64,000 nucleotides of DNA from Chaetoderma sp. LZ-2023a. Its lineage: Eukaryota > Mollusca > Caudofoveata > Chaetodermatida > Chaetodermatidae. How positions within the stretch are numbered: position 1 is the first letter of the stretch; each line of letters opens with the position of its first letter. Of the stretch, positions 43,241-50,159 are shown in pieces. Under the pieces are notes generated by a model that saw only the letters and a program-made list of their open reading frames with translations, was not told the DNA's origin and did not search any database. Both the position numbers and the translations under genes were made by a program. The stretch spans positions 37,292,668-37,356,667 of the forward strand of contig CM067367.1 in NCBI GenBank assembly GCA_034401795.1, read 5' to 3'.

Positions 43241-43776
43241 AGACTGATAAACTTAGATGGTGTGGCTAGTTGAGAGCACCACAGTAAACAAGAATAATAT
43301 TCACAGTAATAAAGAAATTATAAATTGCGTTCTGTAGTTCGGATCGACCGGTCGGATACTGGCCATACCAGCAAAGCTGCGTACGCGCCGCCCATCCTGG
43401 ATTCGTTTCCTGAACACGGCCCCCTGGGTAGAGCCATAAGCGTATATAGGTCTATGGGAGAGATCGCGTTATGAAAATGGCTAAGCTTGTTAAAACGCAT
43501 GATGCGCATGCATGCACCAGGATGCTGTGTTTGATGGAGCGCATAGTTACGACCAAGATAGGATGGCGCTTTTAGAGTACCGAGATGGTACTCTGTAATC
43601 TTTATTGATTGCCTGTTCTCGTTAAATCTGGCATTGACAAAGATCAGAATTCAACGGCTTTTTAAATTTGTACACCATTTCAAAATCGGTTGAGAAATGG
43701 CTGAGTTATCCACGGAAACCCCTTCTTGATTATCTTCAAAATATTGCTGTGGCGTCATAACTAAGTGGACGCAAAA

Positions 43777-43898
43777 CTTCTAGAATGTTCTAGAACATTC
43801 GGCTGCGCTATTATTAGCTACGCGCTGATTGGCTGTTGCTTGAACGATGAATTGGTTGGAGCCTGCGCCTGTGACGTCACGAGGAGTATGTATAAAAG
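43777..43898 (+). promoter_or_regulatory. Heat-shock element, CCAAT, CRE and TATA promoter (unit P copy 1)
   Basis: Five alternating boxes TTC-GAA-TTC-GAA-TTC at exact 5-bp spacing (43778-43800) form a perfect HSE. Downstream lie inverted CCAAT boxes (gattgg 43827, aattgg 43850), a full CRE TGACGTCA (43872-43879) and TATAAAAG (43891-43898). Order and spacing are those of a pol II promoter; transcription should start about 43920-43930. The HSE is not conserved in the other copies. Confidence 0.8.
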
Positions 43899-44142
43899 GA
43901 GACGTGATCCAGTGATCGAGAGCATCCTCGGCCAGGGGCCGAACAGGTTGGATCTGTACCAGCTACTATCAGCACGACAGACAATACATGTTTTACTTCG
44001 CTATGTGTCATGTTTTTATCCCATAGCTGGCAGTTGCCCAACCCACCACACAATTTTGGAACTCCCTACCTACTGGAGTAATTTTGAACTTCTGATTATT
44101 TTTCATGAATATCAGTATCTACTTCGGAACACAAATTTGCGG

Positions 44143-44250
44143 TCAGGCCTTTACGGCCTGAATATGTGAGTCTACAGATGTAGAGGCAGGATGTTCTTTG
44201 ATGGATGACTCGCCGGATCTGCCGGCCACGCCAAAAAGTGGTATTTCAAC
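44143..44250 (+). ncRNA. Conserved structured leader of unit P, copy 1
   Basis: Stem-loop tcaggcc-tttac-ggcctga at 44143-44161, then ggatgactcgccggatctgc (44203-44222) and the hairpin CCAC-gccaaaaa-GTGG at 44226-44241. The same elements, in the same order and spacing, occur at 47362-47255 and 49332-49222 on the minus strand. Sequence between them has diverged. It could be a structured 5' leader or a stable small RNA. Confidence 0.5.
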
Positions 44251-44629
44251 TATCTCCACACTGATATCGTGTAAGTTCTTCTGACTTTCGACCGCAGCAA
44301 GTGAACTCTGCCCGGTGCATCTTCAGAGCTGGCTGACGTACCCAGCACCGTGAAGCTTTGTTTTGTATCTTCGTTTGCCTCTGACAACCCCCGCTTGTGA
44401 TCGGGTTGTTTACACCTTCCATCCATGCCATCGGTGTACGGGAACTTTCTTCACCACAGTAGTACTATCATATCTTTTGCTGACTGCTCGTTAGACATCC
44501 TATTAGGCTTAAAGTGCTGAGCGATGTACCCCTCCCGCTAGTTATAATTTCTGTATTCTGTTTGTAGTTATTCTCATTTTCCTCAATGTGTTGCTAACCG
44601 CACTATAGTAGGTTCGTTAACCTGTACTG

Positions 44630-44878
44630 ATATATATATATGTATATATATATATATATATATATATATATATATATATATATATATATATATATATATA
44701 TATATATATATATATATATATATATATATATATATATATATAAATATATATATATATATATATATATATATATATATATATATATATATATATATATATA
44801 TATATATATATATATATATATATATATATATATATATATATATATATATATATATATATATATATATATATATATATA
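44630..44878 (+). repeat. (TA)n microsatellite, about 245 bp
   Basis: Nearly pure TA with single GTA and AAA interruptions, inside the enlarged part of unit P copy 1. Confidence 0.97.
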
Positions 44879-46491
44879 CCTTGGTCATTTGATACCGTAT
44901 TGATTGTTCTGTTTAGATTATGTATATATATGGCCAGTGGCCATCCGTTCAAATGTTTTGCTTATTTATAGAAAATATAGGATTGCAGTGCACGTAGGAA
45001 ACACGATACAGCAACACTTATATATGCAGCACTTTCTCCAGACACCAACAATTTTTCACTGAGGTCGCTGTCCATGCTATAACTCAGTTTAGCCCAGCAT
45101 GCCACCAACTAAACCTTTTCTATTCAGCTCGATAGGAGAGGTTCAAAATGATTAGAGACACTTTCTTCATTACATACTCTGTAATATACTCTCTCTTCCG
45201 GCAGTGCGATAATCTAGCACTGCACTCCGGTAGGACTCATAGCTCAAAGATTTTGTCTCTCTTCATGTTCCACTCAACCTAGTGGCTTCTTAATTGTTTG
45301 GATGTCCCCATCCACACCATGGGCTGATCCGACTCTGGGAAACTGTTGGGGTTTCCGAGCAGTGATGGCCAGGTTGTGGTGTCACATACATTTCCCTTGT
45401 ATCTTTGGATACTTAGTAGTTAGCACTTTAGCCAATTTAGGAAAGCACTGCGAAAACATATATTAATTATTATTTTATTTACTGAACCAACCTCCCGCAC
45501 CACAGTACAAAACAGGGCAATTTGTATATAAACTTAATGACAGGTTAAACAGTTAGTTCCATAGGACCCGGTGACGGGCGAGATACGTACCCCCACCGAA
45601 TTCTGTCAGAATGTCTGGGCATGATATTTAGATCTGCCGCACCCTTGCGGGAAGGACATTCGTCTCTTTCACCCCCACCATAGCGATAGAACAATGGTCT
45701 AATATGCTTTCGTGAAAAGTAACCCATTTCTTGTAATGTTTTATGTGGTTATGGAGTGGGATGCTCGGAGATCTTACTAAGTAACATGTATGAGCGCTGT
45801 CTTCAGTATTGATGTCTTAGGGCATCTGTTCTCAGCGACAGCCGTGTCTAATAGCTAGGTAGAACTGGATAAGAATCCGGACATCCCACTCCCCTATAGT
45901 CATAACCTCACTAGGTATGGTCTTTTCTTTCTCAAGCATTTTTGGTTGAAATATTAGAGTGGGCCCATTTTTGCCTACTACTCTTCTCCCGCTTTAAGCC
46001 ATGGTGACACCTTCCTGAGACGGAGGCCCACGCGAGGCACTTGCCTCTCGCAAGGATTTAGTGAGGACAGTCCACGCGAGGATAATACTCCTCACCCAAA
46101 CTAGCACTAGGAGTAGTTCCCGCATGAGGCACATAACTTTTCGTCCGAGATAACCTTCTTCCTTTCAGCTTAGAGGCATAATAACTTATGTTAAGTTAAT
46201 TAGTTAAGTCTCGTGTGCGGCAGCCTCCCTTGCAGGGATACCTCTGCGGACCTACGAGTCTGTGTGGTACCTCTGGGAGCCCCATGTTTAAAAGTTCATC
46301 TACCTGTCTCTATGTCTCGGATTTTCGTATGCTCTTATTTTAGTTTTTTCTAGCATATTTATAATTGTTTGGGTAAAATCATTGTATAGCCTTATATTTT
46401 TAGGTCACCAAATTAAATCTTGTAAGTCCATAGATCACGAAATTGCTACGGACAGGCATACTGTGACACAAATTCTTGGGATGAGACAGTT

Positions 46492-48428: not shown

Positions 48429-48790
48429 ACCATTTCATCCTGGCTGTTTGTGTCACCGGTGTGGCATTCCATTTACTAAATTTAGAGCTTAGACATTATA
48501 ATATACATAATTAGTTACAATTAACAAACAAATAATATCATTTGTTGTTGTGGGAGAGAAATCAAGTACATAGGACTGAGTTGGTGATTCGCTTAACATG
48601 GTCTTTGCCAGATCGGGTACCTCACTGACCTCTTATCAGTATAATCAGTGAGGTATCCCCACAAAGGAGGGTCATAACGTGGCTACTTAGCAAGTTTAAT
48701 ATGAACTAAATTAACCCCAAACAAAAGTGCCTCGCGTGGGCCTCCATCACAGGTAAATGCCTACAACACTGAAGCAGAGAAAGCAAAGAG

Positions 48791-49012
48791 ATGGCAAAAA
48801 GGGCCACTCCCTTGTTCAAACTATGCTATGTAAAAAGAGTCAACCTAGTGAAATTACAAGTTATGCATGCTGTATTATGTGAAGATGGGGTGGATGATTT
48901 CCACAGAATTCAACACTGTCACCTTATGCAAGTTAAAGGATACCGAATTAGTGGTTTCCACTTTATTTATGCGGTCCCTTTACTAGATCCTATCCTATTA
49001 GTTAGTTTTTAG
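48791..49012 (+). other. Open frame inside unit P copy 3, not supported
   Basis: A 73-residue plus-strand frame lies antisense to the copy's conserved direction and is not conserved in copy 1. Recorded only because the interval holds no other candidate. Confidence 0.1.
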
Positions 49013-49221
49013 GTCCAGATCAAGGTTAATCCGCAAGTGGCTGTGTCTCCTAACTATTTTTAACCTATGAGCCTGATTAGCGAGAATGCCCGATGTCCGT
49101 ATGGTCACCCTCACAGAGCATCCCACTCAGATAGACAGCGTACGAACATGTCACAAGGTTGCCTCATGCAATGCCCCATGACTGGGGTCGAAATGTTTAA
49201 TACTGAGCATGACACATGTGT

Positions 49222-49332
49222 GGATTCGAACTACCACTCTTTGGCGTGGTGTGGCGGATCAGGCGAGTTATCCATCGAAAGCACCACTCGTCCTATATAC
49301 TTGACAAGCTTTACATCAGGGCCAAAAGGCCC
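49222..49332 (-). ncRNA. Conserved structured leader, unit P copy 3
   Basis: Minus strand: GGGCC-tttt-GGCCC stem-loop, then ggataactcgcctgatccgc and CCAC-gccaaaga-GTGG. It runs into gtagttcgaatccac, which looks like a tRNA T-arm, but a full tRNA cloverleaf cannot be drawn. Confidence 0.5.
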
Positions 49333-49609
49333 ATCTGCAAAAGGTCCATCTGCTGTGTTGGTAGTGTGGGTACCTTTACTTAAATTTAGTTATTGCCCCC
49401 AGATGATATCTTTCTGGGATCGTACAAAAGCTTGCGATGCGGATGTGGTGACTAGTACTCTAGAGACGATTGCTCAAAACTGAGAGGCACTGTAGTAGGC
49501 TATGGGAACCTGACTATACAGTAAGCAGTATCCCACAACTCGTTTATTCTCACACCTCACCACCACATTCTCTCTTTCCTGACTGCTCTCGATTCTGATT
49601 TTCCAGCCC

Positions 49610-49660
49610 CTTTTATACTACTCATGACGTCACAGCTGGAGCACCACAACCAATTAGCGT
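49610..49660 (-). promoter_or_regulatory. CCAAT/CRE/TATA promoter, unit P copy 3
   Basis: CCAAT in caaccaattagc (49648), full CRE TGACGTCA (49625-49632) and TATAAAAG (49617-49610). Upstream tcacgtga (49688) is an E-box. The spacing matches copy 2. Confidence 0.7.
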
Positions 49661-50159
49661 GCGAGTTTCAGAGGCAGGGACAGCAATCACGTGATACGCC
49701 CACATGCTTATGCCTTTAGAGAACTATTTTGAGCGGAATCAAACATGAATAATTCGGCCATTTCTGGACCGATTTTAAAATAGTAAAACGATTTGGGATC
49801 CTCGCTTCATTATGGTAATGCTCGATACTGGGAACGACGAGGAGGGCAAAGTTTTAAGAAATTACGTGCACCAAATTGGTACAAAATATGAAGCCTTTCT
49901 TGCCAATGCTAATGCTGTTGGTAGGCAATCTCTGACGCCCGCGCATGCATACTAGGCGATCTCACAGACTTTGCCGTTTTAAGAACCTCTCTCATATGGC
50001 TTTATACATGCGTACTGTCCTACCCTGGTGTGGGGGTGGGGTAGGGGGCGTGCCTGGAACATATCCGGTCCGGCTGTTCCATATCCAGCAAAGCTGGGTT
50101 CGTACCCGTCCAGTCAATCTGCGCTACACACCCGAGTTGTGATCGATCTGCAACTAATA

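Follow-up and report, generated by a model that had tools for sequence, protein, structure and literature searches.

Three diverged repeats in a Chaetoderma genome as long terminal repeats of a Ty3/Gypsy lineage, with a proposed Gag start inside the repeat

Animal Ty3/Gypsy retrotransposons (Metaviridae) are bounded by long terminal repeats (LTRs) with TG..CA ends, and carry a tRNA-type primer site, a polypurine tract (PPT) and the domain order gag, protease (PR), reverse transcriptase (RT), RNase H and integrase (IN), with 4-bp target site duplications (TSDs). The lineage described here has all of these in common with them; it differs in LTRs of 3.4–3.65 kb and in a Gag start that would lie within the LTR. 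It is represented by three repeat copies in a window of the caudofoveate mollusc Chaetoderma sp. LZ-2023a, the window being the whole stretch of 64,000 nt that was analyzed (GenBank assembly GCA_034401795.1, contig CM067367.1, positions 37,292,668 to 37,356,667, forward strand). Long LTRs (~1.2 and 2.1 kb) and a tRNA-Lys primer are features of the Drosophila Ty3/Gypsy elements Osvaldo and Ulysses, and in the yeast element Ty1, GAG begins within the LTR. One account of Ty1 places the GAG AUG after a 53-nt 5′ untranslated region, and so upstream of the primer-binding site at 95–104 (PMC5454406), and another places that site inside the GAG frame (PMC4974528); the principle is therefore known in the copia superfamily. 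Ty1 is, however, of copia type with a short leader, whereas the present lineage has the Ty3/Gypsy domain order and a presumed leader of ~2.7 kb.

For six Ty3/Gypsy clades, the 'Train_length' entries in Table 1 of one study run from 174 to 695 (PMC3601003). The plant Ty3/Gypsy elements Diaspora, Ogre, BAGY-1 and RIRE3 are described as sharing unusually long LTRs, and Diaspora and Ogre also an unusually long stretch before gag (PMC1142308); as described there, that stretch separates LTR and gag, whereas here the LTR itself contains it and gag would begin upstream of the LTR end. Phrase searches of the open-access literature, which are weak evidence of absence, found no description of gag beginning within a Ty3/Gypsy LTR. 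One survey that looked for LTR elements in molluscs accepted LTRs of 80–1500 bp (PMC6238403); a search for LTR pairs within such limits would miss this lineage, and such elements can escape annotation. Its most unusual traits are the ~3.5-kb LTR, the ~2.7-kb distance from TATA box to gag and the Gag start borne by the LTR.

We think it very likely that copies 1 to 3 are LTRs of one Ty3/Gypsy lineage, for which we propose that Gag is translated from an ATG in the LTR. By their sequences, copy 2 is assigned to a family A, copy 1 to a family B and copy 3 to a family C. The original prediction described three diverged, colinear, promoter-bearing copies, with copy 1 on the forward strand and copies 2 and 3 on the reverse, and alignment bears out both the colinearity and the orientation: local alignments gave 60% identity over 1.1–1.2 kb for copies 1 and 2 (E 1e-55) and for copies 2 and 3 (E 3e-41), and 55% for copies 1 and 3 (E 1e-18), with Smith–Waterman scores of 1334, 1095, and 685 far above the maxima of 181, 167, and 185 reached in 100 shuffles each. 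All three copies open with TGTAG, at 43333 (+), 48177 (−), and 50128 (−). The upstream flanks of copies 2 and 3 have nothing in common (score 398 against a shuffled maximum of 409), their tails score below shuffles when compared with each other, and Rfam returned no match for the whole window or for the first 1.3 kb of copy 1. The shared unit, put at more than 1.2 kb, is colinear as stated but truly ~3.4–3.65 kb in size, and the statement that it has no LTR features must be withdrawn: it has TG..CA ends, copy 1 has a TSD, and a primer-binding site, a PPT and Ty3/Gypsy pol lie beside other copies. Nor is it undescribed at the level of element class, where a known type of element accounts for the conserved blocks. 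As read from these features, the repeat is an LTR of ~3.4–3.65 kb with a predicted promoter, accompanied by a primer site, a PPT and internal gag-PR-RT-RNase H-IN. Because the window copies are solitary or damaged LTRs, their promoter, leader and distal blocks are visible without a coding element.

Searches of the 2.44-Gb genome place these copies among dispersed repeats with defined ends. With copy 2 as query, the best 40 of 8624 candidates were scored and gave 54 matching pieces, and those reaching the 5′ end stop at query positions 1169–1186, mostly at 1178–1182, which is the TGTAG. Matches to copy 1 are 86–100% identical, its own locus included (86–92% over most of the query elsewhere), and 31 of the best 40 span nearly the whole query; the larger matches to copy 3, again among the best 40 candidates scored, are 77–87% identical. 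We fetched 20 family-A loci, chosen mostly for an intact 5′ end, and 16 further loci, chosen as high-scoring and mostly full-length matches. Ten complete family-A LTRs measure 3517–3645 bp, end in GCTACA and have differing flanks; with the incomplete LTR of locus L015 they form a reference set of 11 LTRs from 11 of the 20 loci. In dispersed copies the ends, TGTAGC...GCTACA, are sharp on both sides and form a 5–6-bp inverted repeat. TSDs were checked at 12 of the 20 loci, the rest having unresolved ends or known adjacency to a primer-binding site or PPT, and an exact 4-bp duplication was found at five (L010, L012, L021, L025, and L028), as at copy 1. Three more loci (L014, L016, and L022) begin after a purine tract, so a TSD is not expected there.

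Both flanks of the LTR carry the sequences expected of a retrotransposon. Directly after the LTR 3′ end, L011, L018, L026, and L027 read CTACA-AG-TGGCACCCGATGTGGGGCTCGAAC or close variants, which has the shape of a primer-binding site beginning 2 nt past the LTR, and we take the primer to be of tRNA-Lys type. A purine-rich tract, mostly AGGAGGGGGTG-like, lies directly 5′ of the LTR in L009, L014, L016, L022, and L024. L009, the sole two-LTR case, has two direct repeat copies ~3.7 kb apart that are 87% identical over 2.1 kb, the second being incomplete. Past the primer site come gag text and a DTGAS-type protease (DTGAY in L018, GTGAS in L011), with a CCHC knuckle in L011 and L018, the gag CCHC and protease DTG being recognized by eye. 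Pieces of RT, RNase H, and integrase follow in L018, L026, and L027; L011 as fetched stops before them. Pfam identified RVT_1 (5e-24), RT_RNaseH_2 (1e-29), and rve (7e-9) in L018, and gave no match for its gag and protease pieces. Membership in Ty3/Gypsy is thus assigned from domains and domain order in family A, and pol would by extension belong also to family B (L061–L063) and family C (L034), where the stretch read covers the gag junction. An envelope gene would be sought between integrase and the 3′ LTR; in the last 0.9–1 kb before four 3′ LTRs, the frames of at least 90 aa are TA-repeat in L016 and mostly so in L024, and L014 and L022 each contain a hydrophobic frame (118 and 95 aa), the two being related to each other and placed past integrase, ~0.6–0.7 kb before the LTR.

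The frame that we propose as the start of Gag takes up the 258 nt at the 3′ end of the family-A LTR. It opens with an ATG (MDRHTGDTNSWDETV..), stays in frame to the LTR end (..RAT) and crosses the primer site (SGTRCGAR..) to continue into gag, and the first 86–87 codons of Gag apparently lie within the LTR. The small Cys-containing distal frame of the original prediction is probably this LTR-encoded Gag N-terminus (..SSCTCGA.., by eye). We read the frame in 21 junction copies, seven further family-A tails and seven family-B tails, taking the columns from a single reference copy, a procedure that conceals frameshifting indels (L052, for example, is shifted). The ATG is kept in 26 of 28 family-A rows and six of seven family-B rows, copy 1 having ACG; of the 21 junction copies, 19 have no more than two stops in the displayed stretch and the other two have three. 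In family B, the frame crosses the LTR end in three junction copies, with one stop in the LTR part of L061, and past the primer site homology to family A is recognizable, as EVASYDG.. in each of the three and as FSPVSDG.. in two; in family C, L034 reads DSHTSNTNSRDETVWFNF..PPEAT/SCARCGAQ.., with the ATG altered and one stop. A frame-by-frame protein search with 166 residues across the LTR end gave 151 matches, and all 150 of the matches listed cover the LTR end, 30 of them stop-free, the query's own locus included.

Substitution patterns agree with this frame. Over the LTR-encoded stretch, the 21 junction copies together have 13 stops among 1776 codons in frame 0, and the other two frames have 22 among 1756 and 145 among 1758; farther into gag the corresponding counts are 31 (of 3284 codons), 50 (of 3280) and 141 (of 3262). 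The proportion of synonymous differences (pS) exceeds that of nonsynonymous differences (pN) in 11 of 11 between-family pairs, with pS of 0.49–0.69 and pN of 0.25–0.35 overall (A–B, 0.52–0.59 and 0.30–0.35; A–C, 0.49–0.58 and 0.25–0.28; B–C, 0.66–0.69 and 0.34), which corresponds to a between-family ratio of nonsynonymous to synonymous rates (dN/dS) of ~0.2–0.5; in shifted frames (four pairs, two shifts each) pS and pN are mostly close. Within family A, the rates at the three codon positions are 0.132, 0.131, and 0.159 in the LTR part and 0.127, 0.142, and 0.170 in gag proper. Across the gag stretch of the 11-copy LTR alignment they are 0.116, 0.105, and 0.182, a ratio of third position to the mean of the others of 1.65, compared with at most ~1.14 in the same phase and ~1.4 in any phase for 13 control LTR windows. 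Fixed differences between families A and B in the first 15 codons number one, one, and five by codon position. Taken together, these patterns point to a coding frame under purifying selection that would start at the LTR ATG, cross the primer site and enter gag; the selection is strong in the first 15 codons.

Upstream of this frame, the LTR carries a candidate promoter of CCAAT, cAMP response element (CRE) and TATA motifs at about +500 to +560. The original prediction assigned this promoter to all three copies, and its TATA part stood, TATAAA occupying one alignment position in 12 of 14 LTR rows, all window copies among them; the full CRE (TGACGTCA) occurs in seven of the 14 rows; copies 1 and 3 have it, and copy 2 does not. 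The distal block ggaggcccacgcgaggcac that had been noted in copies 1 and 3 was confirmed at 46022–46040 (+) and 48727–48745 (−). In eight family-A LTRs, the TATA box (~560) and the gag ATG are 2.69–2.79 kb apart. A block at about +900–980 (GGATGACTCGCCGGATCTGCC..CCACGC..AAAAGTGG) is the best conserved leader stretch among families A, B, and C (18 rows). The leader had been called structured, and what holds is this block: the consensus fold has 10 pairs, none with compensatory changes, and so the leader is supported as a conserved sequence and not proven as an RNA structure. An AATAAA at LTR positions 2639–2752 in all 11 family-A LTRs is probably the polyadenylation signal (at ~2690), a position from which R would span ~2.1 kb and U5 ~0.8 kb, with the family-A Gag start falling in U5. 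An upstream peptide, MDDSPDLP.., has a coding look in copy 1 and was rejected by eye, because family A is without its ATG and an extra base is present in family C. In the mechanism that we propose, the TATA box at ~560 would drive the genomic RNA, with RNA polymerase II starting ~30 nt downstream; the ~2.7-kb leader would be spliced, bypassed by internal initiation or cut down by a second promoter; and translation of Gag would begin at the LTR ATG.

The foremost alternative accepts the repeats as LTRs and holds that Gag starts elsewhere, past the primer site or on a distant upstream exon joined by splicing, the frame at the LTR end being an upstream coding exon or a relic. We regard this as quite unlikely, and several observations that favor it also weigh against our proposal. 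The leader is very long and holds 45–57 upstream ATGs in the eight family-A LTRs, which makes plain scanning from a TATA-driven start implausible. Fixed A/B differences past codon 15 are even across codon positions (18, 23, and 20), so that these families are strongly conserved only up to codon 15 and constraint on much of the LTR-encoded Gag is weak. The 13 codons just after the LTR end have more stops in frame 0 (8 of 272) than in either of the others (2 and 4, each of 251) and show no third-position excess (0.174, 0.121, and 0.081). An AG directly before the ATG in family A could serve as a splice acceptor; the B tails lack it, and we set this candidate aside. Further points tell against our proposal on other grounds: another frame is also stop-poor in the LTR part (the 22 of 1756 above); the between-family pairs share sequences and hence are not independent; the rows of the frameshifted family-A copy L052 were excluded from the pS and pN comparison; one shifted frame keeps a pS excess (A–B, 0.48 against 0.33; B–C, 0.48 against 0.42; A–A, 0.18 against 0.12); and the LTR-encoded part of Gag has no Pfam match above the cut-off (best E 0.16). 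No AATAAA occurs in copy 1 or in the stretches read of five of six other B tails, no TSD was found at L013, L017, L020, and L023 (four of nine family-A loci without a PPT), and copy 3 has neither a TSD, an absence that also counts here, nor a following primer site. The transcription start, the poly(A) site and the Gag start are moreover positions that we infer from the DNA, and this counts in the same direction. A Gag start elsewhere is nevertheless hard to reconcile with a frame that crosses the LTR end in three families at a between-family dN/dS of ~0.2–0.5, with homologous gag text (EVASYDG.., FSPVSDG../FSPISEG..) in one frame in A and B, and with an internal Met, at reference codon 99, that is not common to all copies.

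Two other explanations have very little probability. A nonautonomous LTR element (of the terminal-repeat-in-miniature or large-derivative type, TRIM/LARD-like) or a DNA transposon with short inverted ends would suit the many solitary copies and the 5–6-bp inverted repeat at the ends, but gag, PR, RT, RNase H, and IN of autonomous type adjoin family-A copies, L009 has its two direct copies, and the 4-bp TSDs come with a tRNA-type primer site; the pol beside the LTR refutes this explanation for family A. An RNA polymerase II-transcribed host gene or noncoding RNA family, just as improbable, would fit the promoter and leader block kept between families but not a dispersed and very numerous repeat with TSDs, a primer site and, at some copies, pol, and since the LTR–primer site–gag–pol structure refutes it, only the second half of the earlier choice between gene family and retroelement survives and the segments are settled as copies of an abundant retrotransposon LTR and do not represent a new gene family.

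Pattern counts bear on how this LTR is distributed. A 35-base pattern for the junction of LTR and primer site, allowing up to three mismatches, found 604 + 631 = 1,235 matches against 0 + 0 for the reversed pattern, and a 35-base gag-start pattern, allowing up to two, found 3980 + 4033 = 8,013 against 0 + 0 for its control. The comparison suggests that most LTRs are solo or truncated, although the ratio is rough, as 3′ LTRs have no primer site and the two patterns are of unequal stringency. Many copies are solo LTRs, a form that arises by recombination between the two ends of one element. Because each LTR copies the gag start, solo LTRs can retain promoter and start codon. A more far-reaching reading, which we offer as speculation and consider rather unlikely, is that the LTR has grown into a whole expression unit with promoter, ~2.7-kb leader containing a conserved block, polyadenylation signal and Gag coding start. 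If that were so, thousands of LTRs would each act as a mobile promoter with an initial coding exon attached, able to supply nearby host transcripts with an N-terminus derived from Gag, and the element would use the long leader to switch its RNA between translation and packaging. Pieces of another LTR, ~70–72% related, lie upstream of the LTR in L011 (~870 bp) and in L018 (~650 bp), and more families of the lineage probably exist.

The arrangement of the copies in the window (Table 1) follows from one insertion and one deletion. Copy 1 is evidently inserted into copy 2 at 46707/46708, with GTTC duplicated at both of its ends. It is 60–65% identical to family A over nearly its full length, distal block included, and its insertion explains why copy 2 has no distal block; with four family-A LTRs aligned to the window, no match was found for copy 2 beyond repeat position ~1600. 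Copy 3 is shorter because its positions 967–969 join halves that are separated in other family-C loci, by 1.44, 1.64, and 1.41 kb at C3:33097325, C11:183572411, and C11:84219672. The sequence before copy 3 bears a weak resemblance, by eye, to the PPT. The coding pieces at 57554–61359 have 33–81% protein identity to the internal region of the lineage.

Table 1. Copies of the LTR and associated features, in window positions
Feature	Position	Strand	Remark
Copy 1, full-length solo LTR, family B, 3375 bp, TGTAGT...GCTACA	43333..46707	+	
GTTC, left TSD of copy 1	43329..43332		
GTTC, right TSD of copy 1	46708..46711		
Copy 1, two inverted CCAAT boxes (ATTGG)	43828..43855	+	conserved sites in alignment
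Copy 1, CRE TGACGTCA	43872..43879	+	
Copy 1, TATA box	43891..43898	+	
Copy 1, leader hairpin sequence AGGCC..GGCCT	44145..44159	+	conserved fold unsupported
Copy 1, start of leader block best conserved among families A, B, and C	44203..44223	+	
(AT)n microsatellite within copy 1	44630..44878		
Copy 1, putative LTR-encoded Gag N-terminus, decayed	46448..46707	+	ATG to ACG, 1-nt deletion
Copy 2, 5′ part, family A, LTR positions 1 to ~1490	46708..48177	−	TATA 47644–47651
Copy 2, continuation, family A, LTR positions ~1490–1600	43229..43332	−	70–93% identity over 106–140 bp to four reference LTRs
Copy 3, LTR, family C, TGTAGC...GCTACA, with internal deletion	48245..50128	−	TATA 49610–49617, CRE 49625–49632
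Copy 3, joint of internal deletion, copy positions 967–969	49160..49162	−	
Copy 3, putative LTR-encoded Gag start MECHTGDTNSQDEMVWFNF.., then stops	48245..48472	−	
Broken gag, protease, RT, RNase H (−) and integrase (+)	57554..61359	both	lineage-related, unattached to window LTRs

A hairpin-like sequence, CCAGC-AAA-GCTGG, was seen by eye near the LTR start of the copies (~43369, 48130, and 50090); the loop of copy 3, read along the LTR strand, is TTT, as though it had been inverted. Elsewhere in the window, frames at 20110–20992 (+) resemble by eye a DIRS-like tyrosine recombinase and have no Pfam match. Two relics resembling long interspersed nuclear elements (LINEs) lie on the reverse strand, one at 21839–24646 with reverse transcriptase frames, a GDSL-lipase-like frame and RVT_1, the other at 40865–43236 with reverse transcriptase frames recognized by eye and adjoining the copy 2 remnant. 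The 3′ flank of a family-B LTR at another locus (L038) is, by eye, apparently the same LINE sequence as that at ~42759 in the window.

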